Source of the DNA: Acidobacteriota bacterium
GTDB taxonomy: Bacteria; Acidobacteriota; Terriglobia; Acidiferrales; UBA7541
NCBI GenBank assembly: GCA_003224195.1
Contig: QHYP01000054.1
Coordinates: 2,240 to 37,619 of the forward strand
Length of the DNA stretch: 35,380 nucleotides
Direction of reading: 5' to 3'
Shown here: in pieces, positions 8,378-27,351 of the stretch
How the letters are laid out: each line of letters opens with the position of its first letter
Position numbering within the stretch: the first letter of the stretch is position 1
Notes under the pieces: model-generated
What the model was told of the DNA's origin: nothing
The model's input: the letters and a program-made list of their open reading frames with translations, nothing else
The model's database searches: none
Made by a program: the position numbers and the translations under genes

Positions 8378-8938
8378 ATGGGCAAGGGCAGGGTTAACGG
8401 AATGAGCGTTTGCGTGGAAACGATTCTGGCCACAGCAGAGGCGGACAAGCAAGACTCCGGATTCGCGGCTCGCGTGGCCGAGAACCAGCGCCGCATCTTC
8501 CAAATCGCTTACGGCGTGCTCAGAAACTCTTCGGACGCTGAGGAGGTCGCGCAGGAAGCGTTTTTGCGGGCCTATCGAAATTTCGCCTCGCTGCGCGATC
8601 CGGAAAAGTTTCGCGCGTGGGTGAGCCGGATCGCGTTCCGCCTTGCGCTCAACCGGATACGGCAACACCGGCGGCGAGCGGATCGAGACAGAGCGTGGCA
8701 GACCGCAAGTGCGAAAGCGGCGGTTGATGGAGCGCAAAGCGCCGAGGAATACGTGCTGCTAGAGCGATTGTGGAAGGAGATTGCAGGACTTCCGGAGAAA
8801 TTCCGCGTGGTGCTGTTGCTCTCCCTAACCGAAGATATGGACGCGGCCGCCGTGGGAGCAATCCTGCGGATTCCAGCGGGAACGGTGCGGTCGAGGCTGC
8901 ACGCAGCGAGAAAACTTCTTCTGAAGGTCATGACATGA
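8378..8938 (+). CDS. RNA polymerase ECF sigma-70 family factor
   Basis: Sigma2 (RRIFQIAYGVLRNSSDAEEVAQEAFLRAYRNFASLRDPEKFRAWVSRIAFRLALNRIR), sigma4 (LLLSLTEDMDAAAVGAILRIPAGTVRSRLHAARKLLL). Alternative start ATG 8402. Confidence 0.93.
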   Translation: MGKGRVNGMSVCVETILATAEADKQDSGFAARVAENQRRIFQIAYGVLRNSSDAEEVAQEAFLRAYRNFASLRDPEKFRAWVSRIAFRLALNRIRQHRRRADRDRAWQTASAKAAVDGAQSAEEYVLLERLWKEIAGLPEKFRVVLLLSLTEDMDAAAVGAILRIPAGTVRSRLHAARKLLLKVMT

Positions 8939-9459
8939 CGAATTCCTGCCCGGAGTGGACAGAACGGCTGATGGATGCGGCGCTGAGCAACGAGGTGCAC
9001 GCCGCTCTGGGCGACCACTTGAAGCGTTGTGAGAGGTGCGCGGCAGCGCTTACCGCACTGCGCAGGCGGCGCGAACAGATGGACTCGCTGCTGCCGCTTC
9101 TGGTGCGAGGCACTGAGCCGTCACCGGGGTTTCGCGCACGCGTACTCGCCGCAACTGAGTATTGCCTCCCGCGGCGTCGCCCGTGGCTGGCGCGCGCGGG
9201 GGCGCTGGCCGCAGCGACGGCGGTGATCGTGGCGGTGATCGTCCTGGGTTCGGTCTGGCGCTTCCATGTGAACAAGAACAAATCCAATGCAATCTTGTAC
9301 GCGAGCGTCGCGGAGTGGAGATCGCCCACGGAAGCCCTGCTACGCTCCGGATCCAGCGAGATTCTGCGATCTAGCCCACGTCTTGGTGAACTGTACTTCC
9401 CGCTGGCTGCCGCTTCCCCCGGCAAACAGTTGAAGAAAGTAGAACGGAGACATCCATGA
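8935..9459 (+). CDS. Zinc-finger (ZAS-type) anti-sigma factor, single TM
   Basis: ATG at 8935 overlaps sigma stop (ATGA); HLKRCERC (H-x3-C-x2-C) and TM segment GALAAATAVIVAVIVLGSVW. Confidence 0.85.
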   Translation: MTNSCPEWTERLMDAALSNEVHAALGDHLKRCERCAAALTALRRRREQMDSLLPLLVRGTEPSPGFRARVLAATEYCLPRRRPWLARAGALAAATAVIVAVIVLGSVWRFHVNKNKSNAILYASVAEWRSPTEALLRSGSSEILRSSPRLGELYFPLAAASPGKQLKKVERRHP

Positions 9460-9947: not shown

Positions 9948-10679
9948 TTACTCGCGGAGCCGCTGCTCGATCGGCGCGGCGACGATTTTGCGCACGCGTT
10001 CGCGCAGCGCGGGCACTTCTTCTTTGGACATTCCGTTCGTTTCGATGGTGCCGTGCAGATAGACAGTGATCTTTGCCGGCCGAAGCATCCAGTGGCCGGT
10101 GCGGTGATGCTGGAAGGAGCCGACAAGGCTCACAGGAACAATTGGAAGGCCAAGCTGCTGCGCCACGCGGAAGCCGCCGTCCTGGAATTGGCCGACGCGG
10201 CCGTCGCGCGTTCGCCTCGCCTCCGGGAAGATGATCAGGCTCGTGCCTCCGTCCACCGCGTCCCGCGTCTTGCGCCACATGCGCTTCAGGTCCGAGGGGC
10301 GCCGCACGTCCGGGACCGGCACGTTGCCGAAGCGCTTCATCAGTCGGCCATAGACCGGAATTCTGAAATGAGACTCCAACTCCCAGCCACGAACCAACTG
10401 CGGAATCGCGCAGTAAAGGACAAACGGATCGAAGAGATTCACGTGATTCGCGATGAAGATGCAGGTACGCTGCGGGTCGAAATCCGAAGCGCGGCGCACT
10501 TCAAGTTTTGCTCCGGCAAAGAATACGATCCGTCTGCAAAAGGCGCGCTGCAACCAGTCATGTTTACGGGGATCGAGAAAAATCGCGAGGCCAATCAAAA
10601 CAGGCACGGTGATGCCGAAGTGCAACAGACTGATCGTCCACACAAGCGCGCTGCGCACCGCCAGCCAAGCGCGCCTCAT
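9948..10679 (-). CDS. 1-acyl-sn-glycerol-3-phosphate acyltransferase-like (PlsC family)
   Basis: NHVNLFDPF (H-x4-D) and IIFPEARRTRDGRVGQFQDGGFRVAQQLGLPIVPVSLVGS. Confidence 0.9.
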   Translation of the reverse strand: MRRAWLAVRSALVWTISLLHFGITVPVLIGLAIFLDPRKHDWLQRAFCRRIVFFAGAKLEVRRASDFDPQRTCIFIANHVNLFDPFVLYCAIPQLVRGWELESHFRIPVYGRLMKRFGNVPVPDVRRPSDLKRMWRKTRDAVDGGTSLIIFPEARRTRDGRVGQFQDGGFRVAQQLGLPIVPVSLVGSFQHHRTGHWMLRPAKITVYLHGTIETNGMSKEEVPALRERVRKIVAAPIEQRLRE

Positions 10680-11578
10680 ATGTACACGTCAACTGCGCCG
10701 GGCACCGCCTCCAGGGAGCGGCATTCGACAGTGACCACTTCCCCGTCCACCATCACGTCCACGGGCACGGGGATTTTGAACTCGATGCGGCGCACGGAGC
10801 GGCGCGAGGCCAGCGGATGCCGGATGTGCGAGCCGTCATAGAGCTTCGGCAAGGTGCGCAGCAGGCCGATGCGCCCGATCGGTCCCCAGCGAACCATCTC
10901 GATGAACCCGTCGGAAGGATCGGCGTGCGGCGCAATCAACATCGTTCCCCCCGTGTACTTGCTGTTGTTGAAGCTGAGGAACAGGCAGCGCCGCTCGTCC
11001 CAGTCGGGGTCGTCATCGCAGCGCAACGCAAAGGCGCGCCGGCGCAATTGCACCAGCCGCAGGAAAACTCCCAGCAAGTAGCCGAATTGGCCGAGCGGCT
11101 TGAAGCGGCGATTCGTGAGCGCGGCCACATCCGCCGTAAAGCCGAGGCTCAGCAGATTGAGCGAATAGAGCTCGCCGGAGGCGTGTTTCAGCCGGAGCAA
11201 GTCGCAGGCGCGAGTGCGACCTTCGAGAAGCGCCTGCAGGGCGGCGTCGGCCCCGTTTTGAGTGAAATCGCGCAGAAAGGAATTGCCCGTGCCCAACGGC
11301 AAAAACCCCAACTTCACTCCGTGGGCGATTGAATTGGAACCGTACACACCGTTCAGGATTTCATGTGCCGTGCCGTCGCCTCCCACGGCAAGGAATTTGC
11401 GATAGCCCTGCGCGTAGGCCTCCTGCGCGAGCAGCACGGCGTGGCCGGGGCCGGCGGACGCGATGGCATCCAGGCCCAGGCCGGCCTCGCGAAGCCGCGC
11501 CAGCGCCGGGCCGGCCAGCGATCCGCAGCGTCCTCCGCCTGCGGTTGGGTTGACGACAGCGAAGAAGCGTTCTTTCAC
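10676..11578 (-). CDS. Diacylglycerol / lipid kinase family protein (YegS-BmrU type)
   Basis: VKERFFAVVNPTAGGGR, FLAVGGDGTAHEILNGV, GFLPLGTGNSFLRDF. GTG start at 11578 preferred (avoids overlap with the ligase gene ending at 11586); ORF track extends to 11686. Confidence 0.9.
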   Translation of the reverse strand: MKERFFAVVNPTAGGGRCGSLAGPALARLREAGLGLDAIASAGPGHAVLLAQEAYAQGYRKFLAVGGDGTAHEILNGVYGSNSIAHGVKLGFLPLGTGNSFLRDFTQNGADAALQALLEGRTRACDLLRLKHASGELYSLNLLSLGFTADVAALTNRRFKPLGQFGYLLGVFLRLVQLRRRAFALRCDDDPDWDERRCLFLSFNNSKYTGGTMLIAPHADPSDGFIEMVRWGPIGRIGLLRTLPKLYDGSHIRHPLASRRSVRRIEFKIPVPVDVMVDGEVVTVECRSLEAVPGAVDVYI

Positions 11579-11585
11579 GGCGTGT

Positions 11586-13307
11586 TCACAAGGATTGTAC
11601 AGCAGAGGCGCGCTCGAGTTGCGCCAGTCGCTCGGCCAGAGCGTTGCGCTTGATCTTGACCGAGGCGGTGCGCGGAAAATCCTCATTCCACAAGACGACG
11701 CCGTGGATTCGCTTGTAATTCAGGAGCCGCTGATTCCGCGAATTGATTTCCCTCCGCAAGTCCTCGGTCATCGACTGCCCCGGCTCAAGATGCAGCACAA
11801 GGACGAGCTGTTCGCCGGCCATCGCGCGTCGCGGCCAGATGTAATTCGCCGCAAACACACAGAACTCTTTCACCGGAAGGCTCTCAAAGACCTTTTCGAT
11901 GTCCTCGGGATAGATGTTTTTCCCTTCCTCGGTGACGATCATGTTTTTCTTCCGGCCAAAGAGCTGCAAATGGCCGTCGCCGTCAAACCGCCCGAGATCG
12001 CCGGTCATCAGCCAGCCGTCCACAATCGCCTCCGCGGTGAGCTCCGCGTCATTCAGGTAGCCGGCCATGACCGTTTTGCTGCGAACCGCGACCTCTCCGA
12101 CGCCCTCGGCATCGGGATTCACGATGCGCACTTCCATTCCCGGCAACGGCTTACCGACGCGGAACGGTTTCAGGTCATTCACCGTAATGGCGGTGCCCGC
12201 TTCGGTGAGGCCATAGCCGTTCGCGACCGGGATGCCGAGATCGTAGAAGAATTGCAGCGTTTGCGGCTCCGTGAATGCTCCGCCGACGATGATGGCCCGC
12301 AGATCGCCGCCAAACGCATCATGCACCTGCCTGAGAAGCAAGCGGCTGATTGCCGGCCGCGGACGGCCCCGCGTCAGCACTTTGTTGATTGCGACGAGTG
12401 CGTTTAGGAGCTTGCGCTTACGTGACGGCAGCGCATCGAACCGAGCTTGCAACCCTTTCCGCAGATTCTTCAGCACCAGCGGAACGAGGCTCACGTAAGC
12501 GATCTTGTACTTCGGAAATGCCTCGCGCACGTATTCCGGCCGCAGCGTCCGCAAATGCACCACCGTCGCGCCGCAAATGAAAGGGCCGAAGAAGCCCACC
12601 ATGAAATCGATTGCGTGGTTCGTCGGCAGGATGCTCAGGTACCGGATGCCGGGCCAAAAGGGATAGAGCGAGGTCAGCGCGACGCATTGTTCGAGATAAT
12701 TCTCGTGCGTGATCATGCAGCCCTTCGGACGCCCGCCCGTCCCCGAGGAATACACGATGCACGCGATGTCGTGACGCTGACGCGCAACAAACGCGGGTTC
12801 GCCCGCGCCGCGGAATTCTTCCCAGCGCTCCGCACCATGGAGGTCCGCATCGGCGGGGGCTTCCGTGACGAGCACGGTGCGCACGCAACTTCCCTCGAGC
12901 GCATTCGACGCCGCAAGCTGGCGCCAGATCGGATACTCCGTGATGAGCACGCTCACGCCGGAATGCTTCAACAGTTGCCAATGTTCGTCGGGCGTCAGCT
13001 TGTAATCCAGGGGCACAAGCACGCCTCCACAATGAAAGATGGCATAGGCTGAAATCAGCCACTTCGGCTGATTCGTCATGATGATCGCGGCGGGGTTCTG
13101 TCCCGAAGCTGCGGTTCTTCCTCCCGAGAAATCGGAATCCTGCAGCCCTTTGGCGAGCGCATGTCCGCGCTCCCTGAATTCGCGGTAGGTCAGGCGTTCT
13201 GTCTCCCGCTCGCGGTCAGACTCAATCAGGCACACTTCATTCGCGAATTGGTCGAGCGCGTCACGCAGCGCCGCGCCAATCGATTGATATTTTGCGAGAT
13301 CGAGCAT
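11586..13307 (-). CDS. AMP-dependent acyl-CoA/acyl-ACP synthetase (ligase 1)
   Basis: 573 aa; ANL core motif [71 protein letters not shown]. Confidence 0.93.
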
Positions 13308-13640: not shown

Positions 13641-14444
13641 TCAAGGCAGATACGGCATGGCGTCCGTGGATTCCACAAACTTCTTGAGGCCAGCCATCAC
13701 GGCGGGCTGCCGGAGCAGTTCGCAGAAGATCTCGATCTCCCGGCGAAGCTCTTCGCACGGAATCGGCTTGACGAACTTCTTTGCGGCGGCGCGCGCGCCG
13801 GGATCGAACTTTCTAATCTGCTCGGCGGTCGCCCGTGCCACGCGCAGCGATTCGCCTTCGGCGGCAAGCTGCGCCACCAGCCCGACCGCGTGCGCCCGCG
13901 CGGCGCTCACGCTCCGGCCCGTCAGCAGTAGGTCGCGGATGAACGCATTGCCGAGGTCGCGCTTCAGTCGCGGGATCCCGCCCCAGCCGGGGATCAGGCC
14001 GAGGCGCAGCTCGGGAAACGCAAATCGCGCCATCTTGTCGGCCACGATGATGTCGCAGGCAAGCGCGAGCTCGAATCCTCCGCCGAAGCATACCCCGTGC
14101 ACGGCGGCAATCGTGACGACCGGCGCGGCGTCAATCGCGTTCATCACGCGGTGCATGCGCTCCAGGAATTCTCGCGCTCCAGTATGAAACTCTTTTTCCG
14201 GCATCACCGCTGCCAAGCGGTACAGCTCGCGCAGATCGGCCCCCGCGCTGAAACCGCGCCTTTGAGCGCTCGCAAAGATGCACGCGCTCGTATCGGGAGA
14301 AAGCGCATCGAGCGCCGTGATGAACTTTTCCAGCTCGCCGAGCGCGGCCAAGCCAATCTCGTTCGCGGGTTCATGGTCGAGCGTCAGCTCAAGAACACGG
14401 TCGCGCCACTCCCATCGCAGCATCGCTCCGGTAAATGCTTTCAT
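13641..14444 (-). CDS. Enoyl-CoA hydratase/isomerase family protein
   Basis: FSAGADLREL, GVCFGGGFELALACDIIVADKMARFAFPELRLGLIPGWGG. Start ATG 14444 (MKAFTGAMLRWEW); ORF track extends to 14858 across the preceding gene. Confidence 0.92.
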   Translation of the reverse strand: MKAFTGAMLRWEWRDRVLELTLDHEPANEIGLAALGELEKFITALDALSPDTSACIFASAQRRGFSAGADLRELYRLAAVMPEKEFHTGAREFLERMHRVMNAIDAAPVVTIAAVHGVCFGGGFELALACDIIVADKMARFAFPELRLGLIPGWGGIPRLKRDLGNAFIRDLLLTGRSVSAARAHAVGLVAQLAAEGESLRVARATAEQIRKFDPGARAAAKKFVKPIPCEELRREIEIFCELLRQPAVMAGLKKFVESTDAMPYLP

Positions 14445-16099
14445 GCGCCTTTCCTCTGATACATCGCCGAGATCTCCCCTGTGTACCGCGCCGCAATTGC
14501 GTCGCGGCGCAACTTGCCGTTGACGGTCAGCAGGCCGTTTTCCACGGTGAACGCGTCGCGCAATACGGCAAAACTCCGCACCTGCCGGTAGTGCGGCAGG
14601 CCCGGATTCAGCCGGTCGAGCGCCGCCTGCACGTCGCGCGAATCGACATCGCCAGTCACAAGCGCGCACAAATATCCGCGTCCATTCCCCGCCAAGAATA
14701 TCTGCTGCGCTTGAGGAATCAACGTCCGGAGCTTCTCTTCGACCGGCTCCGGCGCAATATTGTGCCCTGAATTCAGAATGATGACGTCTTTGATTCGCCC
14801 GGTGATTCGCCAGTTTCCGCGGACGTTCACTTCGCCTTGATCTCCCGTGTGAAACCACCCGCCCTGCAGCACGCGCACGGTTTCCTCCGGGTGGTTCCAG
14901 TAACCCGGGAAAACATTCGGCCCGCGCACGAGAATCTCTTCTTTCTCACCGAGCTTCATCTCAATGCCGGGGATCGCCGTGCCCACGCGGCCCGGTTCGA
15001 CCGGTTGTCTGGGATCGTCCATGGTGCAAATGCCCGTCGTTTCCGTCAGACCATACACCTGCAAGACCGGGATCCCCAGCATCAAAAAGAACTGCTGCGT
15101 TCCCGGGGCAAGCGGAGCCGAGCCGCAAACCAACGCCCGGAGATGCGGCCCAAAGCGCGCCTTAATTTTCGAGAAAATCAGGATCCTGCCCAGATTCACC
15201 CAGACGCCGTCAAAAAAATTTCCGCGCCCAACATGCAGCCTTTCCCACGCCGCCTGCGCCTTGGCAAAAACGTTGCGCAGCGTCGCGCCGCGCTTCGAGA
15301 GCGCGCCTTCTACACCGCGCCGCACGCGCTCGAGAAATGTCGGCACATTGATGAAATAGTTCGGCGACGCGGCCCGGATTTCGTCGGCAAGGCGATTCAG
15401 ATCGGTGGAGAGCGTCAGCGCGCTTTCCCGCGAGAGGCACGACAGCATTAGAATCCACGACGCCGCAAAGTTGAAAGGAAGATAATGAAACACGCGGTCC
15501 GGCTCGCGCGTCGCGCCCATGAGTTGATTCAACCGCTCTGTCGTGCAGCTCAGAATGTGATTCACGTTACCAACGCTCAGGCAAACGCCTTTCGGCTCGC
15601 CGGATGTTCCTGAGGTATAGATGATTGTGACGAGATCGTCCTCTGCGCGCTGAACTGGCGGCACCACAATGTCCGCGCGAGCCGCCCCGGCCCCGAGCGC
15701 TTCTTCAAAAAGCGCGCACCGCGGCGCATCCGACCACGCGAAGGCAGCGGCATCTCCGAGCGGGGTTTCGCTGCACAGCAGCAAACGCGGCTGACAGTCT
15801 TTCATCATCGCCACAAGCTCCGCAGGGGCTTGCCGCGAGTAGAGCGGCACGACGATGATGCGTTCCGCCATCAGCGCCAAGTCAATGGCCACCCAGCGAA
15901 TCGAATTGGGGCCAAGCAGTGCGCAGCGATCTCCCGGCCGCAGACCCGCACGCAGCACAAACGCCCGGGCCGATTCGACCTGCGCCAGGAGTTCGCTCGC
16001 GGTCACGCGCACCACGCCGTCCGCATGCAGCTCTTTCAGGACGAGGCGGTGCGCAGCCCGCTGCAATTGTCCAAAAATGTGTTCGAGAAAATCGGGCAT
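14441..16099 (-). CDS. AMP-dependent acyl-CoA/acyl-ACP synthetase (ligase 2)
   Basis: 552 aa; IIYTSGTSGEPKGVCLSVGN, QVYGLTETTGI, GGWFHTGDQGEVNVRGNWRITGRIKDVIILNSGHNIAPEPVEE; ATGA overlap with the hydratase gene. Confidence 0.93.
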   Translation of the reverse strand: MPDFLEHIFGQLQRAAHRLVLKELHADGVVRVTASELLAQVESARAFVLRAGLRPGDRCALLGPNSIRWVAIDLALMAERIIVVPLYSRQAPAELVAMMKDCQPRLLLCSETPLGDAAAFAWSDAPRCALFEEALGAGAARADIVVPPVQRAEDDLVTIIYTSGTSGEPKGVCLSVGNVNHILSCTTERLNQLMGATREPDRVFHYLPFNFAASWILMLSCLSRESALTLSTDLNRLADEIRAASPNYFINVPTFLERVRRGVEGALSKRGATLRNVFAKAQAAWERLHVGRGNFFDGVWVNLGRILIFSKIKARFGPHLRALVCGSAPLAPGTQQFFLMLGIPVLQVYGLTETTGICTMDDPRQPVEPGRVGTAIPGIEMKLGEKEEILVRGPNVFPGYWNHPEETVRVLQGGWFHTGDQGEVNVRGNWRITGRIKDVIILNSGHNIAPEPVEEKLRTLIPQAQQIFLAGNGRGYLCALVTGDVDSRDVQAALDRLNPGLPHYRQVRSFAVLRDAFTVENGLLTVNGKLRRDAIAARYTGEISAMYQRKGA

Positions 16100-16113: not shown

Positions 16114-17553
16114 TCAGCGGGCCGCGGCCTGCACTGCCGTGGCAGAATCATGGCGCCCGGCGAGCGCGCGGAGGTTCTCGCTGAGCGGCGGCAGATAGTC
16201 CTCCCAGCTCCACACGCCCGTGCGAAGAGGAAATTCCGGATATTGACGCCGCACCGCTTCTTCGAAAAGCAAACCCATTCGCGCCATCACTTTCAGATTG
16301 CGCACGACCGTGCGTGCGATCCCCTCGCGCACCGATTCCTGCTCCTCGCGCAACGTTTCCATCACCGACAGGAGTTTCGCTTCGAGGTCCGGCTCGTCTA
16401 CGGTGAGCAGCAGATGTTGGTGGCCGCGTTCATTCATCAAATTGCGGATGCGTTCGTCCATCGTGACGCCCGCCGACGCGACCAGCGCAGGCATCGAGGT
16501 CACGATGCCGTGATACCGCGACGACACCATCAGGGAGCAACACCGTAGAATGCTCACAAGCTGGAACATGTCGTAATCGCCCGAAGTAAACACAGGCGCG
16601 CCGGGGAGCCGCCTGGCCAGGTCACGGCACGCCCGCGCGTCCAGCCGCTCCATGGCCACGAGGATCGGGAACACGCGGTGGCGCTCGCCGAACGCCCCCG
16701 CGGCTTTGCCGAAACCGGAAATGTAGTGCTCGTATTTTCGGTCCACCTCGGGGCCGGATTCATGGAAGTAAACCGTGCGGTACTGACTTTCCTTGTACGC
16801 GCCGGTGGCGGCGCGTGCGAGGTACTTCGCGATGGACGCCTTTACTGGCCAGGCAAACGGATGGATTGGGCAGAGCGCCAGGATGGGCGTCCGCTCATCC
16901 CAGCCCGCTTGGCGCAGCGCTCTGCGCCCATACTCGGGCGGGTGCGGGTCAAAGGTCCACGCCGTATCCGTTCCGAGCTCGGTATGAATGCCGAGTTGGC
17001 TCAACAGTGTCTGCGACTCCGGATTTCGCGTGATGACCAGCGAATCCCGGACGTAACGCCCGCACATCCGCTCGATGAGGCCGTCCATTTGGCCGGCCTC
17101 GGCGCCATAGCCGATCGACAGCTTGTTTTCCGCCGACGCCAGACCCAGCGAGCCGATCATCATGGTCGTCAGCGCGTTGGCGAATTTGCTCTTGAACATC
17201 GAGCCTTCGCACGCAATCACGCCGTGGTTCTGCCGCACTTCGCGGAAAAGGAAAGGAGGATAAACGTCGGGCAGATGCACTTGCTGCGTCCCCTCGAAGT
17301 AACCGCGTGTGCGGTCGAAGTTCTGCGTCATCACGCTGAACGCGACATTCTCTCCGCCGAGCACATGGCGAATCTGACGGATCATCTCCTGCACGCGCAC
17401 ATCGGAGCCGGTATTGCGCGTCCCGTTGTAGCCCGCAAAGAGCAGCTTCAGCTTTTCGCCCGATCGCCAACCGCGGCCGAGACCGAGCATCCAGCCGATG
17501 CGCCTAATCTCGATCAGAGCGCTGACGCAGGCCACGAGGAGAAAATCGGTCAT
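16114..17553 (-). CDS. Polysaccharide pyruvyl transferase family protein
   Basis: 479 aa; [22 protein letters not shown] near the N-terminus; [31 protein letters not shown] near the C-terminus. Confidence 0.85.
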
Positions 17554-18704
17554 GCGCGCGCACCTTTTACGGCGACCGCTGCCGCCGGAGCCTTCTCCGG
17601 CCAGGGAACATACGGATATTCGAAATGATTCTTGCGGCTGAACTTCAGAAGGGGGTAGGCATACGTCGAGAACGGCGCGGGCGTCTCGCCCAATTCCGCG
17701 ACGATGCGAGAATTGTCAAAAGCGGTATTCCAGACCAGGTACGGCCAGAATACTTTGAGCAGCGAAGCGCCATAGCCCACTGCCCCGTGGCGGCGCGAGA
17801 GCCAGTGCACGAGTGAAGCGAAGGGCCGCCTGAGCGCAGGCCAATAGAGAGGCCGGCGCCAGCCTGCGGCTGCGGCAAGCGCATCCGTCATTTCCCGATA
17901 GGTTTGCGAGGCAGTCCCCGAAGAAAGATGATAGATCTCGTGCGCGCGTACCTCCTTCTGGTGGATGGTTACGATCGCCTTTCCGACGTAGTTCGCCGGA
18001 ACTATGTCGATCTTATCTTCCGGGCGCAGAGGCAGCACAGGAAGACTGGCCAGCACGTCGAACGCGCGGACCATGTCGAACTGCGTGGTTTCCGGCCGGC
18101 GGCTGTCGCCCAACACGATTGCCGGCCGGAAGATGGTGCGGGGCACGTCCGGCAGTAGCTGCCGCACCATGTGCTCCGAGAATTTCTTGGTGCGCGCGTA
18201 CGGATCGAAGTCGGAGAGCGTCCAGTCGATGGCCTCATCTTCTTGCACAACGGCGTCCTGCCGCTTGCCGGCCACCGCCACTGTGCTGACGTGGCTGTAC
18301 CGCCGCAGGCCGTGCCGGTTCTGCGCGTGGCGGGCGAGCTGGATGACCTCGAGCGACCCGCGCAGATTTACGTTCAAGCACTGCTTTTCCGATTTTCGGT
18401 TGAGCGAAGCCGCGCAATGGATCAGCGAATCGGTTGTATCCACGAGAGTGTGGTATTCCCCGTCTTCCAACCCAAAGCGCTCGCACGTCAAGTCGCCGCG
18501 GTAAATGTGCACGCGCGTCTGCAAATGCTCGATGAATTCCGGAAACCCGAAATGAAGTTGCAGCGACTGCCACAGGCGTCTCTCCGCCTCCTCGAGCGTA
18601 TGCGCGCGCACAAGAAGGTTCAGGGTATCGCGGGAGTCCCGCAAAAGGCCGGCGACGATGTAGCTGCCGATGTAGCCCGTCGATCCGGTTACGAAGATCG
18701 CCAT
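17550..18704 (-). CDS. NAD(P)-dependent thioester-reductase-like / extended SDR protein
   Basis: [21 protein letters not shown] Rossmann start at 18704; YARTKKFSE (YxxxK); ORF track extends to 18821. Confidence 0.88.
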
Positions 18705-21061
18705 AGCGGGTCGGAGTGCGGCGAAGACGACGCTGCGGACGCGCCGACGGCTTCCCCGTTCCAGTCGAGCGCGCGCGGCACCCGTGGTTCGAGCGAGCGC
18801 CCCTCCATGAGCGGATAGCACCAGCGCCGCAGCGCCGGAATATGGATGTTAATCCAGTAGTCCCACCAGTCAATACTTTCCGGGTCGAAACCAAACCGTT
18901 CGCGCTCCTCCGGCAGAAGCGCCGCCGAAAGCAGCCGCGCGTTCTCGCATTCGAAGATATGTTCGTTAAGCAGAATGAACGGCTCGTACAGCTCGATGAG
19001 TTTTTCGATGCGTATGAGGTCGCGCTCCTGCTTCGCCAGCGGTGGCTTCTTCAGCCGCAGTGACGCAGCCACGCGATTGATCCCCGAGACGAAAGCTTTC
19101 TGCATGGGCACCGAAAGCCGCTCATAGCGCTGCTTCGAAACAGGGATGCTTTCGAGTTTCACCTTTAGCCAGCGGTCGATTCCCTGTTGCGAACGATAGT
19201 GCTTGCGGTGCGCCAAGCCGGTCAGCTCGATCGAGCGCCCCATGTCGCATGGGTTGATTGCCGAAGTTGCGAGCTGATAGAGCCGCGCGTGGCGCCGGGT
19301 CACGACCGCGGCGGCAATCAGCGTCATCCCGCGGCAGACCATGTCCACCGGAATCACGTCGAGGCACTTGCGCTCGTTCGAGGGCAACTGGCGGAAGTTT
19401 GTCCCGAGCAGGTAGGACAATGGCCCCGAAGTGTTGATGCCTTCGTTCCAGCCGGGAAATGGTGAACGCATGGAGCTTTCGACAATCGCGGGCCGCACAA
19501 TGGCAATGGGCAGGCTGCGCCCGCGCCGAGCCAGAATGGATTCGCCGAGGCTTTTTGTAAACGTGTAGGTATTGGGCCAGCCGAGGTACTGCGCGCGCCG
19601 CAGGCCCACGCGCGCCAGGCGGTTTCGCACCCAGCGCGCCCGGTTGCGCCGCATCACTCCGTCCAGCTCTCCGGCGGATGCTGCCGATGCGTCGCCCTTG
19701 CGCCCAAGCGCCTGGCGTCGCAGCGCCGCTTCGAGCTCAGCACCTTTGCCTCGCTCTTCCACGCGCCGGATGGTTTCCCGCAGGGATTCGATTTCGCGCT
19801 CGGCGTCAAACGTCGGATCGCCCGCAGGATTGTAGTTTTCCTGCAACTCCTCGGATACGCGCCCATCCCGCGCTCCAGCCACGTAGCAAGTGGAAAGATG
19901 CATCAAACCGGCGTGGTCGCAGTCTTGGAGAAATTCGAGAAGGTGGACCGCCGAATCGACATTCGATGAGAGGGCGTCGCGCAGATCGGGATTGAAATCG
20001 GTGAGCCCCGCGCTGTTCACAACGAGGTCGAGCGATGAGGCCAGGCGTCTCCGCGTGGCCTGATCGAGCCCCAAACCCGGCTGGCTGACGTCACCTTCTA
20101 CGACCTCGATCTTCCTTCGCAGGAACGCACCGAAGCGCTCGCCGTGAGTCTCGTATAGCCGGTCGAACGCGGGCGATTCCTCGGCGATTTTTTCGAAGCG
20201 TCTCTGCGCGGGAGTTGCGCGACTGCGCCGCAGGAGCAGCGTGATCTTGCCAATCTCCGGAAGGTCCTCCAGCAACTGCACCAGCCAGACTTTCCCGATA
20301 AACCCGCTGACGCCGACGAGCAGGATGTGCTTCCCCGCAAGCGTTTCGCGGACGCGCAGCTCACCGGTATGCGGCCTACCGTCAAAAAAAACTACGGGGC
20401 GATCCGGAGCGCGAGGGCAGCGCGCGGTTGCGTGAATCGCGGCCTCCAGACGATGCGGTTGACCGTTCCAGCCAAGCTGTCCAAGCAGTTTCCCTCGCTC
20501 GATCCGGCCATCCGTCGCCCCGCTGGCGAGCCACGCCAAGGGCCCTCGCGGGCGCACGACCGGATCAAGCAGCCGGCCGGTCGCGCGGCCATTTCGAAAT
20601 TCCAGGCGATTTGCGGCCAGCCATTCCGCGCCGAAGTGGTGCGCCAGCGGCCGCATCACGTGGTCGACGCCCTGGCTCACCAGAACGATTCGCTGTCCCT
20701 GCCGCACCGCCTCGCAGAGTTTTTCAGAAGCGCTGCGGCGAAGTTGCGGCCGCAGGACGTATTGGAAATACTCTTCGCCGAGCAGCTCCAGGCGGTCGCG
20801 GCTAACGCCGCGCAGAAGGGTGTGCAGCAAACGCGTGGCAAATTGGCGGCCGCTGGCGTAGGCGAAGGGTCGCACCAGCGCCATCGCCGCCATCCCCGCG
20901 CGGCGGGCCCAGCGTTCGGCAAAACTCTGCGCGTTCCAGGTGAAATAGCCGACCGACCGAAGTGCGCCCAGCTCGAGCAGGCTCCCTTCGACGCGCCAGA
21001 ATACGAACTCGCGCGTGTCCGCGGCAAGCTGACCCCGCACCGGATTGGCTGGCTCAGACAT
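18689..21061 (-). CDS. HAD-like (degenerate) domain fused to fatty acyl-CoA/ACP reductase (NAD-binding_4 plus FAR C-terminal region)
   Basis: 790 aa; N-terminal HAD-like segment ([15 protein letters not shown]...[45 protein letters not shown]); Rossmann [34 protein letters not shown] (YxxxK); FAR-type C-terminus [33 protein letters not shown]. Confidence 0.88.
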
Positions 21062-21335: not shown

Positions 21336-22445
21336 TTATACGCCCCAGCCGTAACGGCCGGCGTGTTCGAGGGTGAGCTGCATCTCCTGCCGAAGGATTT
21401 CGGCGAAGTGTGATGTGCCGACGACGCGCCCGGCCGGCTCCGCAATATCCGGCGTGCGGTAGCCCGCGGCCAAGACGCGCTCGAGCGAGCGCTCGATCCA
21501 GTCCGCCTCGATCCCCAGACCGAAAGTGTCGCGGAGCATCATCGCCACGCTAAGGATTGCGCCGATGGGATTCGCCGCCTCTTTTCCTGCAAGCTGCGGC
21601 GCCGAGCCGTGGATCGGCTCGAACAGCGGCGTGCCCGTGCCGAAACTGGCCGAAGGTAGCAACCCAATCGAGCCCACCAGCGCTGCGGCCTCGTCGCTCA
21701 GGATGTCCCCGAACATGTTCGACGTGAGGATCACGTCGAACTGCTCCGGCCGCAGCACCAACTGCATCGCCGCGTTGTCCACATACAGGTGCTCAAGCCG
21801 CACCGACGGATAAAGCTGGCTCATGGACGTTACCGTCCGCCGCCAGAGCTGCGAGCTGATGAGCACGTTCGCCTTGTCCACCGAAGTGAGGCGCCGGGAG
21901 CGATTTTCTGCGCGCGCGTAAGCGAACGCGGCGATTCGCTCGACCTCCGGTGTCGAGTACGATTCCGTGTCGAATGCCCGCTCACCGCCGCTGATCTGCT
22001 GACTGCCGCGCTCACCGAAATACATTCCTCCGGCCAGCTCGCGCACAATCTCGATGTCCAACCCCCCGAGCCGGTCGTGCTTGAGCGGCGAAATGGCGCG
22101 CAGCGGCTGGTGCAAGCGCACGGGTCTCACATTCACGTACAAGCCGAGCTCCTGCCGCAACGCCAGCAAGCCACTCTCGGGCCGGTTCCCGACCGGCTGC
22201 GCATCCCATCGGGGCCCGCCCACGGCGCCGAGCAGCACGGCATTCGCCTTCTGGCAGGCCTCCAGAGTCTCGGCAGGCAGCGGCACGCCCTTTGCGTCGA
22301 TGGCCGCGCCGCCGAGCGGATATTCCGGAAGATCGAAGTGATGCCCGAACTCGTGCGCGCACTCGCGGAGGATGCCCGCAGCGGCGCGGATTACCTCCGG
22401 TCCAATGCCGTCTCCCGGCAGCATCACAATGATTTTCTTCAACAT
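21336..22445 (-). CDS. leuB: 3-isopropylmalate dehydrogenase
   Basis: MLKKIIVMLPGDGIGPEV, LLGAVGGPRWD, SNMFGDILSDEAAALVGSIGLLPSAS, EPIHGSAPQLAGKEAANPIGAILS. Confidence 0.95.
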   Translation of the reverse strand: MLKKIIVMLPGDGIGPEVIRAAAGILRECAHEFGHHFDLPEYPLGGAAIDAKGVPLPAETLEACQKANAVLLGAVGGPRWDAQPVGNRPESGLLALRQELGLYVNVRPVRLHQPLRAISPLKHDRLGGLDIEIVRELAGGMYFGERGSQQISGGERAFDTESYSTPEVERIAAFAYARAENRSRRLTSVDKANVLISSQLWRRTVTSMSQLYPSVRLEHLYVDNAAMQLVLRPEQFDVILTSNMFGDILSDEAAALVGSIGLLPSASFGTGTPLFEPIHGSAPQLAGKEAANPIGAILSVAMMLRDTFGLGIEADWIERSLERVLAAGYRTPDIAEPAGRVVGTSHFAEILRQEMQLTLEHAGRYGWGV

Positions 22446-22539: not shown

Positions 22540-23730
22540 TCAGGCCGCGGGGGAAGCCGTCTGTGCGACGGCGGGCCGGCGGCGCATCACCTCGTGCGCA
22601 ATCGACACCACGTCGCGCGTGCGCACCTGTTTCGCTTGGTCGGCAAGCGCCGTGACGCGCCGGTAGCATTCTGCCAGCTCCGTGTCATTCGGCTCATACC
22701 CCAAGTCACGGAGAGTCACCCGCAGCGCGTTGCGCCCTGAATGTTTCCCGAGCACCAGCGAGCGCGACGGCACCCCGACGGTCTGCGGCGAAATGATCTC
22801 GTACGTGAGCGGATTCTTGATAATCCCATCCTGGTGAATCCCGGCTTCATGGGCGAACGCGTTTGAGCCGACAACAGCTTTGTTCGGCACCACCTGGATT
22901 CCCGTGATTTCCGAAAGCAGCCGGCTCGTGGGGAAAATCTCGTTCAGGTGAACGCCGGTGGTCACGCCAAAGCTTTCTTTGCGCACCGCCAACGCGACCA
23001 CAACTTCCTCCAGCGAAGCATTGCCCGCGCGTTCGCCGATTCCATTGATTGTGCATTCGATCTGCCGCACTCCCGCGCGGACCGCGGCCAGCGAATTGGC
23101 CGCCGCCAGACCCAGGTCGTCGTGGCAATGCGCGCTCAGGGTTATCCCCGGCGGGTCGCCCAAGTATTCGCGCACGCGACGGAACATCTCGGCGTATTCC
23201 TCCGGCACGGCGTAACCCACGGTATCAGGTAAGTTCAACACGCTGGCGCCCGCATCAATGGCGACGCGGCAGACTCGGCACAAAAAGCCGATTTCCGTGC
23301 GCCCGGCATCCTCGGCGGAAAACTCCACCTCCGCAACGTGCTGCCGGCCGAGCCGCACCATGGAATCGATCGCCTCCAGGACCTGCTCGCGCGTCATATT
23401 CAGTTTTACCCGCATATGCAGGTCGGATGTCGCCAGAAACACGTGCAGCCGGGGTTCGGCGGCCGATTTGAGCGCCTCGATGGCCGCTCGCACGTCTTCT
23501 TTCTTGGCGCGGGCCAACGCCGCAATCGGGACGTCCCGCACCTCCTCTGCAACCTTACGAACTGCTTCCAGGTCTCCCTGCGATGCGATTGGAAAGCCCG
23601 CTTCGATGACGTCCACGCCGAGCGCAGCAAGCTGCCTCGCCATGCGCACCTTTTCCGCAGTGTTCATCGAGAAGCCGGGTGATTGTTCCCCGTCGCGAAG
23701 CGTGGTGTCGAAAATACGGACTGCGTCCAT
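22540..23730 (-). CDS. leuA: 2-isopropylmalate synthase, short form without C-terminal regulatory domain
   Basis: [65 protein letters not shown]; ends at 396 aa. Confidence 0.9.
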
Positions 23731-24939: not shown

Positions 24940-27351
24940 ATGCCCTGCGTGCAAGTGCGAATTGCGGCGCACAGCAAGTCCCTGTCCACTCCGGTTCCAA
25001 ACCTTCGAGCAGTTTCCTCCGCTTTGGCACCAATTGTTCTCGCAATTCTGGCAAGCGCCTCCGCCCACGCGCAATCGCAAGCGCAACATGTATATGCCTC
25101 GGGTGGCACGGCCGTGTTCGGTTTCGCGAAGGACTCCACAACGGGCGCTCTCACCGCGACATCAGGCTCGCCGTATAGCCAAACCCTTGACGGCAGCGCG
25201 CTCGCTGTTGATCCGCTGGGACGGTTCCTATATGTATTGAATCCCAACGCGAACGACGTCTCGGTCTACGCCATCGATCAGACGACGGGTGCGTTGAGCA
25301 ATGTTCCCAATTCGCCCTTCACCGCAGACGACGCCACGACCCCACAGGTGCTCGCGGCAGAGGCCAACGGCAAATTCCTTTACGTCGGCAACCATCAGGG
25401 ATCCCAGTCCGGATTCACCACCGTCGGCGTCATCGACATCTACTCCATTGATGCCAACACCGGCGCGCTCGCCTCTGCCACTCCAACTCCCACGCCGGGT
25501 CCATTCAACCCTGTCAGCATGGTGGTGGACGCCAAGGGCCGCTTCCTATATGTCTATCAGGGACCCAATGGTGCTACCGGCGACGCTGGTGGCGCAATTG
25601 AAGCTTCCCAAATCGATCCAATTACCGGACTGCTCACCCCGTCCCTATCTTCATGTTCCGGCGGGGGGTTCGGGCTCGCACTCGCCATTGACCCAAAACT
25701 CCGCTTCCTTTTCGCGGGGCGCGGTGATCAGCAAGGGTACATCGATGCGTGCACGATATCGCCAGTAGATGGCTCTTTGCAATCGATTGGGACAGTAAGA
25801 TTTCCCGACGAAAATGTTTTCCCCGATGCGATGGCCATTGATTCCAGCGGTCAATTTCTCTACGTCGTTACGTCGCAGCGCACGATGCGAGCTTATTCCA
25901 TTGACCAAACTACAGGCGTTTTGACCGAACTTCCGAATTCCCCACTTCCGGGAATCCTGCTGGGGTTCTCCATCGTGGCCGACCCGCAGGGGCCCTTTCT
26001 TTACGCCTTGGGTGGCAAGGGCATTGTTGGGTTTCAGGTGGATCCGTTGACCGGCGCATTGACACAAATCGCTGAGGTTTTGACCACGGGATCCGTGGCC
26101 GTCGCCATTTCCGGCACGCCAGTGCTGGCCTCGTCGGGCCCCGTTGCAGCCTTGAGCCCAACTTCGGTTGATTTCGGCAACGTAACCGTCGGAAGCACGA
26201 CCGCCCCTTTGGTCGTTTATGTCGTCAACACGGGCGATCAAACTCTGGATTTTTCCAGCCCCGCCATTTCCATCACGGGAACAAACAGCAGTGACTTCCA
26301 GCCGACGAACACATGCGGCGCGACTCTCGTTCCCAATCAGAACTGCACCATAAGCGTGAACTTCACTCCGTCCGCAGCGGGCACGCGCTCCGCATCCCTC
26401 ACGATCAGCGACAATGCTCCGGGAAGTCCGCAGAGCGTCCCTCTCAACGGCCAAGGCGTTACGCCGCAGCCCGCGGTATACCTCGTGCCGGGCAACGTGA
26501 CGTTTCTCGAAACGCTGCTGGGTAACAGCAGCTCCGCAAAAACCGTTTCCGTGACCAATTCCGGCCAGGCCACACTCACCATCTCCAGCGTGGCGCTCTC
26601 GGGTTCTAATTCCAACGACTTCTCGCAGACAAATGACTGCACGAGTCTCGCTCCAGCCGCGAGCTGCGCCATTCATGTCACGTTCACTCCGCTCGCTTCC
26701 GGCCAACGCGCTGCGTCCATCCTCATCACCGACAACGCGGCGGGATCGCCGCATACGGTCGCGCTCTTAGGAGTAGGCGACGCGCCTTTCACTGTCGCAC
26801 CAAACGGCTTGAATCCCACTTCGCTGACGATCACTGCGGGCCAAACGGCTCAGTACGAGTTGCAACTGACGCCTGCAGCCGGATTCACGGGCGCAGTCAC
26901 CCTTGCATGTTCCGGCGCACCGCTCGAGGCGGCTTGCGCCGCTTCCCCGTCCTCCGCGCAGGTCAACAACGCAAACCCAATCCCCTTCAGCGTTTCGGTC
27001 GCGACAACTGCCCGTTCCTTTGCTGTGCCCTTCCAGCTTGCTCCGCGCCGTGCGCCTCTCGAAATGATTCGTTGGCCGCTGATTCTCTTCTTCGGACTGG
27101 TGATTTTATTCTTGAGAAGGATGGGGGCGAAAACTGCCGCGCGGACGACCATCCTCACTTGGTCCCGAGTAGCAGCGGGTTTTGCGTTGCTAACAATTGG
27201 TGGAGTGTGCGCTTGCGGAGGCGGCGGAAGTGGCATCCCTGTGCAGTCTCCGCCTCCGGTGGGGACGCCGGCGGGCAAGTCCACGATCACGGTGACGGCC
27301 ACACACGGCACAATCACCGAACAGCTTCAGCTCACACTGATTGTGAAGTGA
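24940..27351 (+). CDS. Exported lactonase-type beta-propeller protein with two choice-of-anchor-D (HYDIN-like) domains and a C-terminal Ig-like/TM region
   Basis: 803 aa; repeated propeller units (AVDPLGRFLYVLNPNANDVSVYAIDQTTGAL), SVDFGNVTVGSTTAPLVVYVVNTGDQTL..., C-terminal TM segments. Confidence 0.82.
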   Translation: MPCVQVRIAAHSKSLSTPVPNLRAVSSALAPIVLAILASASAHAQSQAQHVYASGGTAVFGFAKDSTTGALTATSGSPYSQTLDGSALAVDPLGRFLYVLNPNANDVSVYAIDQTTGALSNVPNSPFTADDATTPQVLAAEANGKFLYVGNHQGSQSGFTTVGVIDIYSIDANTGALASATPTPTPGPFNPVSMVVDAKGRFLYVYQGPNGATGDAGGAIEASQIDPITGLLTPSLSSCSGGGFGLALAIDPKLRFLFAGRGDQQGYIDACTISPVDGSLQSIGTVRFPDENVFPDAMAIDSSGQFLYVVTSQRTMRAYSIDQTTGVLTELPNSPLPGILLGFSIVADPQGPFLYALGGKGIVGFQVDPLTGALTQIAEVLTTGSVAVAISGTPVLASSGPVAALSPTSVDFGNVTVGSTTAPLVVYVVNTGDQTLDFSSPAISITGTNSSDFQPTNTCGATLVPNQNCTISVNFTPSAAGTRSASLTISDNAPGSPQSVPLNGQGVTPQPAVYLVPGNVTFLETLLGNSSSAKTVSVTNSGQATLTISSVALSGSNSNDFSQTNDCTSLAPAASCAIHVTFTPLASGQRAASILITDNAAGSPHTVALLGVGDAPFTVAPNGLNPTSLTITAGQTAQYELQLTPAAGFTGAVTLACSGAPLEAACAASPSSAQVNNANPIPFSVSVATTARSFAVPFQLAPRRAPLEMIRWPLILFFGLVILFLRRMGAKTAARTTILTWSRVAAGFALLTIGGVCACGGGGSGIPVQSPPPVGTPAGKSTITVTATHGTITEQLQLTLIVK

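Follow-up and report, generated by a model that had tools for sequence, protein, structure and literature searches.

The stretch of DNA analysed here (the window; 35,380 nucleotides of contig QHYP01000054.1 from an Acidobacteriota bacterium) carries on its minus strand a 790-residue protein in which a degenerate HAD domain is fused to a fatty acyl reductase (FAR), and this gene heads a conserved operon. The features of the fusion and the genes that follow it are listed below.

18689..21061 (-): pseudo-HAD/FAR fusion, 790 aa (Pfam HAD, NAD_binding_4 and Sterile)
20546..21004 (-): degenerate HAD domain, residues 20-172
20978..21001 (-): former catalytic motif I, residues 21-28, FWRVEGSL replacing FYDLDGTL (alignment with fused and intact relatives)
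20669..20683 (-): former motif II region, residues 127-131, LVSQG where intact relatives have LV[TS]G (alignment)
20531..20554 (-): former motif III region, residues 170-177, RPRGPLAW replacing AExEKARx
20360..20545 (-): variable linker, residues 173-234, at the site expected for motif IV (SDSxSD)
18791..20359 (-): FAR module, residues 235-757, apparently catalytically intact
17550..18704 (-): SDR/thioester-reductase-like NAD_binding_4 protein (Pfam), conserved beside the fusion
16114..17553 (-): polysaccharide pyruvyl transferase-like protein (PF04230), conserved in the operon
14441..16099 (-): AMP-binding acyl ligase 1 (PF00501), conserved in the operon
13641..14858 (-): crotonase, enoyl-CoA hydratase/isomerase family (PF00378 from residue 154), conserved in the operon
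11586..13307 (-): AMP-binding acyl ligase 2 (Pfam)
10676..11686 (-): YegS/DgkB-type lipid kinase (PF00781 and PF19279), conserved in the operon
9948..10679 (-): PlsC-type acyltransferase (TIGR00530, E 9.8e-21), final gene of the conserved operon

The initial annotation had read the first of these genes, from the letters alone, as a HAD-like domain without its catalytic aspartates joined to an alcohol-forming-type FAR. The open reading frame is genuine, and all the peptides that the annotation had quoted occur in its translation: the 16-residue N-terminal peptide is residues 18-33, the 39-residue HAD-like segment is residues 126-164, and the 18-residue FAR-type peptide sits in the Sterile (FAR_C) region. 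The HAD match (PF12710, residues 47-180, E 1.8e-13) covers only profile positions 27-161 of 189, so that the motif I start and the motif IV end of the profile are unmatched. The assignment of the C-terminal part to the FARs is supported, at the level of domains, by NAD_binding_4 (residues 248-578, E 2e-53) and Sterile (residues 683-748, E 2.5e-11). Both the nucleotide-binding GxxGFxxK and the catalytic YxxxK of such reductases are present, as GxxGFIGK (250-257) and YTFTK (Y499/K503), and are invariant in a nine-sequence alignment (G250, G253, F254, K257, Y499 and K503); with its catalytic residues intact, the reductase looks functional by prediction. The closest solved relative of this module is rice DPW (7eoz). 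Alcohol-forming FARs of this kind (PF07993 and PF03015) share with the fusion the Rossmann and Sterile domains, the nucleotide motif and YxxxK, whereas neither rice DPW nor the split bacterial FARs examined have an N-terminal HAD domain.

The SDR-like gene likely starts at 18704, as judged from the translation, and would thus overlap the end of the FAR by 16 nt, while the true start of the crotonase is probably downstream of the listed one. In one other lineage (L147), the second ligase, the kinase and PlsC lie nearby on the opposite strand. Neither an ACP (PP-binding domain) nor a Lar_N protein was found among the operon proteins scanned with Pfam, and scanning the operon for promoters yielded no signal better than chance. 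Elsewhere in the window, 22540-23730 (-) and 21336-22445 (-) hold a 396-aa 2-isopropylmalate synthase beside leuB and a LysR gene. This synthase, the sole match of its kind in the genome and conserved in two other loci (L049, L050), matches approximately positions 2-387 of 516-position models, and its C-terminal regulatory domain is apparently absent; a feedback-insensitive leucine-pathway flux feeding iso-branched fatty acids is a speculation that could be attached to it. An 803-aa protein with a lactonase-type beta-propeller and ASH/HYDIN-like Ig domains is encoded at 24940-27351 (+).

Motifs, fold and selection in the HAD-derived domain

Both aspartates of motif I are replaced, as the initial annotation had stated, DxDGT having become WRVEGS. 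The variant is conserved: an alignment of the 88 distinct fused homologues gives [FY]WR[VA][ED]G[SFC] in 86 and FVSADGG in the other two, and DxDGT, or even DxD, in none, whereas the intact relatives all have FYD[LF]DGTL. Homologues with DxDGT at the same position exist only as separate genes. In motif II, position 129 is Ser in 59/88 and Gly in 27/88, and Q130 replaces Gly in 86/88; the window's protein itself has Ser129, so the residue is present here yet not maintained across the fused clade. Motif III has the clade form RPRGxxAx in place of the AExEKARx of intact HAD proteins, and with it the catalytic Lys is lost in the fused sequences. No fused row of the alignment contains the SDSxSD of motif IV, the segment being deleted and a variable linker standing in its stead. 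The initial annotation thus understated the loss, because the motif II Thr, the motif III Lys and the motif IV Asp are missing as well. Of what characterizes a HAD phosphatase, the Rossmann-type fold with a C1 cap is present with a partial core only, and none of motifs I, II, III and IV remains; from the known mechanism, hydrolysis in the standard HAD manner is not credible.

Two sequences stand apart from this pattern. L031 and L032 (genomes G056 and G048, family f9) belong to a divergent lineage of the fusion, whose motif I reads FVSADGG, one Asp being kept at the second position, and which lacks the R-P-R-G segment at motif III; they are possibly an early-diverging or a separately decayed form.

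The fold was examined with an AlphaFold model of residues 1-237 built from 81 sequences (mean pLDDT 89.6, pTM 0.85). Its Foldseek matches in the PDB are HAD-IB/SerB proteins, including 3fvv (E 1.1e-8, TM 0.52/0.55 over approximately 156 columns), SerB2 (3p96) and the phosphoserine phosphatase of M. jannaschii (1f5s), among others, and a fold other than HAD is thereby rejected. The domain keeps strand 1, the C1-type helical cap, strands 2-3 and a beta-hairpin, while the C-terminal part of the core, approximately one third of it and including motif IV, is gone; in agreement with this, the Foldseek match spans about two thirds of a HAD. Compared with HAD-IB/SerB-like phosphatases (PF12710, TIGR01490; 3fvv, 3p96), the dead domain shares the fold, the cap and the N-R-L-E-F...A-T-G-R hairpin region, but it lacks every catalytic motif and the C-terminal core part. 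A full-length model from nine sequences was weak (pLDDT 64.8), and we therefore claim no HAD-FAR interface.

The dead domain is under strong purifying selection, and its dN/dS is no higher than that of the FAR. Mean site entropy is 1.00 bit in the HAD core (residues 20-172), 1.07 and 0.94 in the two FAR parts, 2.22 bits in the linker and 3.25 bits in the N-terminal tail. Median dN/dS, taken from the 40 least diverged pairs with dS > 0.15, comes to 0.058 (HAD core), 0.077 (FAR) and 0.325 (linker), and although these pairs are non-independent and a few have unreliable dS, the ranking is clear. In all, we regard the identification as almost certain: a conserved pseudo-HAD joined to an intact FAR.

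Distribution and the relation to elb

The fusion was found in 36/36 searched genomes of the window's genus (one copy being fragmentary at a contig edge) and in 7 others of 61. By our own count from the listing it occurs in 83/250 genomes of the class, and across the phylum in 11/297, including families outside the class. A profile search of genome contigs returned 80 loci, all of them with the fusion as a single open reading frame, although its query consisted of fused sequences only and the count is uninformative on the number of split types. The locus titles are acidobacterial except for one (L077), labelled Betaproteobacteria, which is possibly a mislabelled MAG, and the nearest relatives among the returned loci carry the label of either group 2 (gp2) acidobacteria or Candidatus Acidiferrum. 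A plasmid or phage origin was considered and rejected: a single weak FAR match lay on a Streptomyces plasmid, and phages gave none.

Other acidobacteria encode a separate, intact DxDGT HAD-IB protein together with a separate or ElbD-type FAR, at 35-39% identity. In two of these loci (L038, L040) the FAR gene is immediately preceded by the intact HAD gene; elsewhere the neighbours are FAR, an ACP-AMP ligase-acyltransferase, PlsY and Lar_N (L042), or Lar_N, FAR, SDR and a lipid kinase (L033). One split-type FAR frame (L041:5564-7918, minus strand, 784 aa) has approximately 290 aa without a Pfam match ahead of the reductase domain, and its start codon may be misplaced. A FAR tree separates 30 fused from 9 split sequences by a single long branch with full support, and the fused FARs are a single clade apart from the split ones. 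The program warned of long-branch effects, and because of this warning and the very long branch, direct descent from an elb operon is only a possibility.

The elb (ether lipid biosynthesis) operon of M. xanthus comprises elbB, encoding a HAD protein, elbD, encoding a FAR-ACS-ACP-acyltransferase protein, and the epimerase ElbE (Lorenzen et al., 2014, as reviewed in PMC9131029). Only some subdivision 4 acidobacterial genomes carry elb (PMC11868695), and Solibacter usitatus has no ElbD (PMC10087280). An elb-type operon in one genome of our set (G486, locus L146), made up of an intact HAD, Lar_N, a 1511-aa FAR-ligase-ACP-acyltransferase protein and an SDR, agrees in composition with the reviewed M. 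xanthus operon (PMC9131029) and with elb in some subdivision 4 acidobacteria (PMC11868695). Genes for an IS200-like transposase and an ORF6N-domain protein (L146:5712-6377 and 8730-9269) break into this operon.

It was this acidobacterial operon, rather than M. xanthus sequences, that served for the comparison with the window. When its ElbD was searched against the window's own genome, the best FAR match was the fusion (36%, E 1.1e-91) and the best ligase match was the second ligase of the operon (11586-13307; 34%, E 2.3e-57), with no full-length ElbD match in that genome; since both best matches fall here, the operon resembles the parts of elb taken apart. As in the myxobacterial operon, a HAD, a FAR, an acyl ligase, an acyltransferase and an SDR are grouped. 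The differences are that the window's homologous domain to the HAD-superfamily ElbB is dead and fused to the FAR; that the ElbD modules are separate genes, with no ACP or Lar_N protein; and that the operon has additional genes for a crotonase, a pyruvyl-transferase-like protein and a second ligase. The operon SDR had no match to the split-cluster SDR at the cut-off used, and the two are not closely related.

No genome examined held the fused and the intact or split types together, including 43 fused and 9 split genomes in which all or nearly all candidates were scored, and none of the 250 class genomes or the 297 phylum genomes had both fused and intact types. Because only 11 fused and approximately 26 intact genomes occur among the 297 of the phylum set, co-occurrence would be rare anyway and the exclusivity is suggestive only; in part it follows ancestry. 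In the window's own genome, whose assembly is 87% complete and which contains other HAD proteins, a search with an intact relative for an ElbB-like HAD elsewhere matched the fusion only.

Possible roles of the dead domain and of the operon

The dead domain differs in composition from its intact relatives. Over the same columns, and with an intact set of eight sequences, its Arg content is 13.1% against 9.2%, and its mean net charge is +9.6 against +1.4. The FAR parts are alike in Arg (9.7% and 9.3%), so the rise is not one of general base composition. The fused-specific conserved residues, taken from the alignment with intact relatives, include R23, R50, R53, R64, R77, R156 and R172. A positively charged, conserved and non-catalytic domain fits the binding of an anionic partner, and a putative binding or anchoring role is our best reading, at a probability of about 0.55. 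The initial annotation had suggested a pseudo-phosphatase used as a docking module, perhaps for acyl-ACP or lysophospholipid. The pseudo-phosphatase part holds, given a HAD fold seen by sequence and by model, lost motifs, a conserved replacement and a low dN/dS; the docking module is consistent with a domain that is conserved, has gained positive charge and was never seen lost from the fusion, and the choice of ligand was a guess.

Most likely, then, an ElbB-like phosphatase gave rise to this domain, which would now act without catalysis as an Arg-rich module for binding or anchoring and serve an active FAR in an elb-like pathway; its binding partner and the lipid product are what we infer. 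An ancestral ElbB-like HAD phosphatase gene adjoining a FAR gene would have been fused to it, after which the phosphatase chemistry would have been lost, the protein keeping its helical cap and some of its core. The retained module could bind an anionic partner, such as a membrane surface, a lipid phosphate, acyl-CoA or acyl-ACP, and in so doing position the substrate or the reductase. The PgpC of E. coli is a member of the HAD group. It has been described as a peripheral membrane phosphatase (PMC11629553), which indicates that related phosphatases can operate at the membrane surface. In outline, the lipid pathway is likely to be elb-like: the operon would act like a dismantled elb cluster, in which the ligases activate fatty acids, the FAR reduces these to the alcohol or aldehyde, and the acyltransferase and the kinase build a modified, possibly ether, lipid. 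An ether product may be regarded as a lead.

The operon could instead make another lipid, namely a wax ester, an alcohol-capped or polyketide-like lipid, or a signal molecule, its likeness to elb reflecting no more than common lipid enzymes. This alternative concerns the pathway and is compatible with a binding module. The crotonase and pyruvyl-transferase-like genes, to which nothing corresponds in the reviewed elb operon, and the lack of ACP and Lar_N speak for it, whereas the match of the HAD, FAR, ligase and acyltransferase modules to elb parts and the separation of the two types among genomes speak against it, and we consider it a serious possibility, though not the one we favour. A purely structural role, in which the domain binds no ligand and, packed against the FAR, maintains the fold or dimer of that module, would be expected to leave the same strong purifying selection, and the HAD domain was never seen missing from the fused clade, FAR-only members being truncated matches that lay at contig edges where checked (G014). 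However, homologous FARs exist as genes of their own, with no HAD covalently attached, and the many Arg among the conserved fused-specific residues, with a net charge raised by approximately 8, are more than packing alone seems to need; we think this role unlikely, though it ranks next after binding or anchoring. It is more improbable still that the old active-site cleft was rebuilt as a new catalytic site from the invariant W22, R23, E25 and Q130 together with Arg residues. Near-invariance of the replacements, beyond what simple loss would give, speaks for it. Against it, motif IV and in all about one third of the HAD core have gone, S-A-D-G stands at this place in two sequences, and we know of no HAD-fold enzyme that works in this way without the nucleophile Asp and the metal ligands. 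Local decay into a recently broken phosphatase domain without function, as the loss of both catalytic Asp in the window's protein might suggest, is rejected with near certainty, because a low dN/dS and the recurrence of one variant in nearly all the fused homologues, from several families and more than one class, point to neither chance nor decay.

The binding-module reading has a parallel in the pseudophosphatases of the PTP family (STYX, MK-STYX; PMC8269279), which kept a phosphatase fold for binding after catalysis was lost, the role here being putative; unlike the dead HAD, these have an unrelated fold and act in eukaryotic signalling. HAD members are unmentioned in a 2022 review of pseudophosphatases (PMC9464862), and a literature search found no report of a HAD-FAR fusion under the terms tried, which is weak evidence of novelty. 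The fusion, carried by soil acidobacteria, offers a clear bacterial HAD pseudo-enzyme, under strong selection within a lipid enzyme, and intact relatives in other lineages allow comparison.

In its fullest form, the proposal is of a new acidobacterial pathway for ether or related lipids, distinct from elb and never seen alongside it in the genomes examined. In this pathway a one-time lipid phosphatase would serve the FAR as a non-catalytic domain that binds substrate or partner. Taken whole, we hold this to be tentative and rather unlikely; if true, the new pathway could supply the ether-forming step in acidobacteria without elb. The fusion marks an uncharacterised lipid operon in Acidobacteriota, a concrete candidate gene set in the search for the genes behind the ether lipids and the brGDGT palaeothermometer lipids of this phylum.
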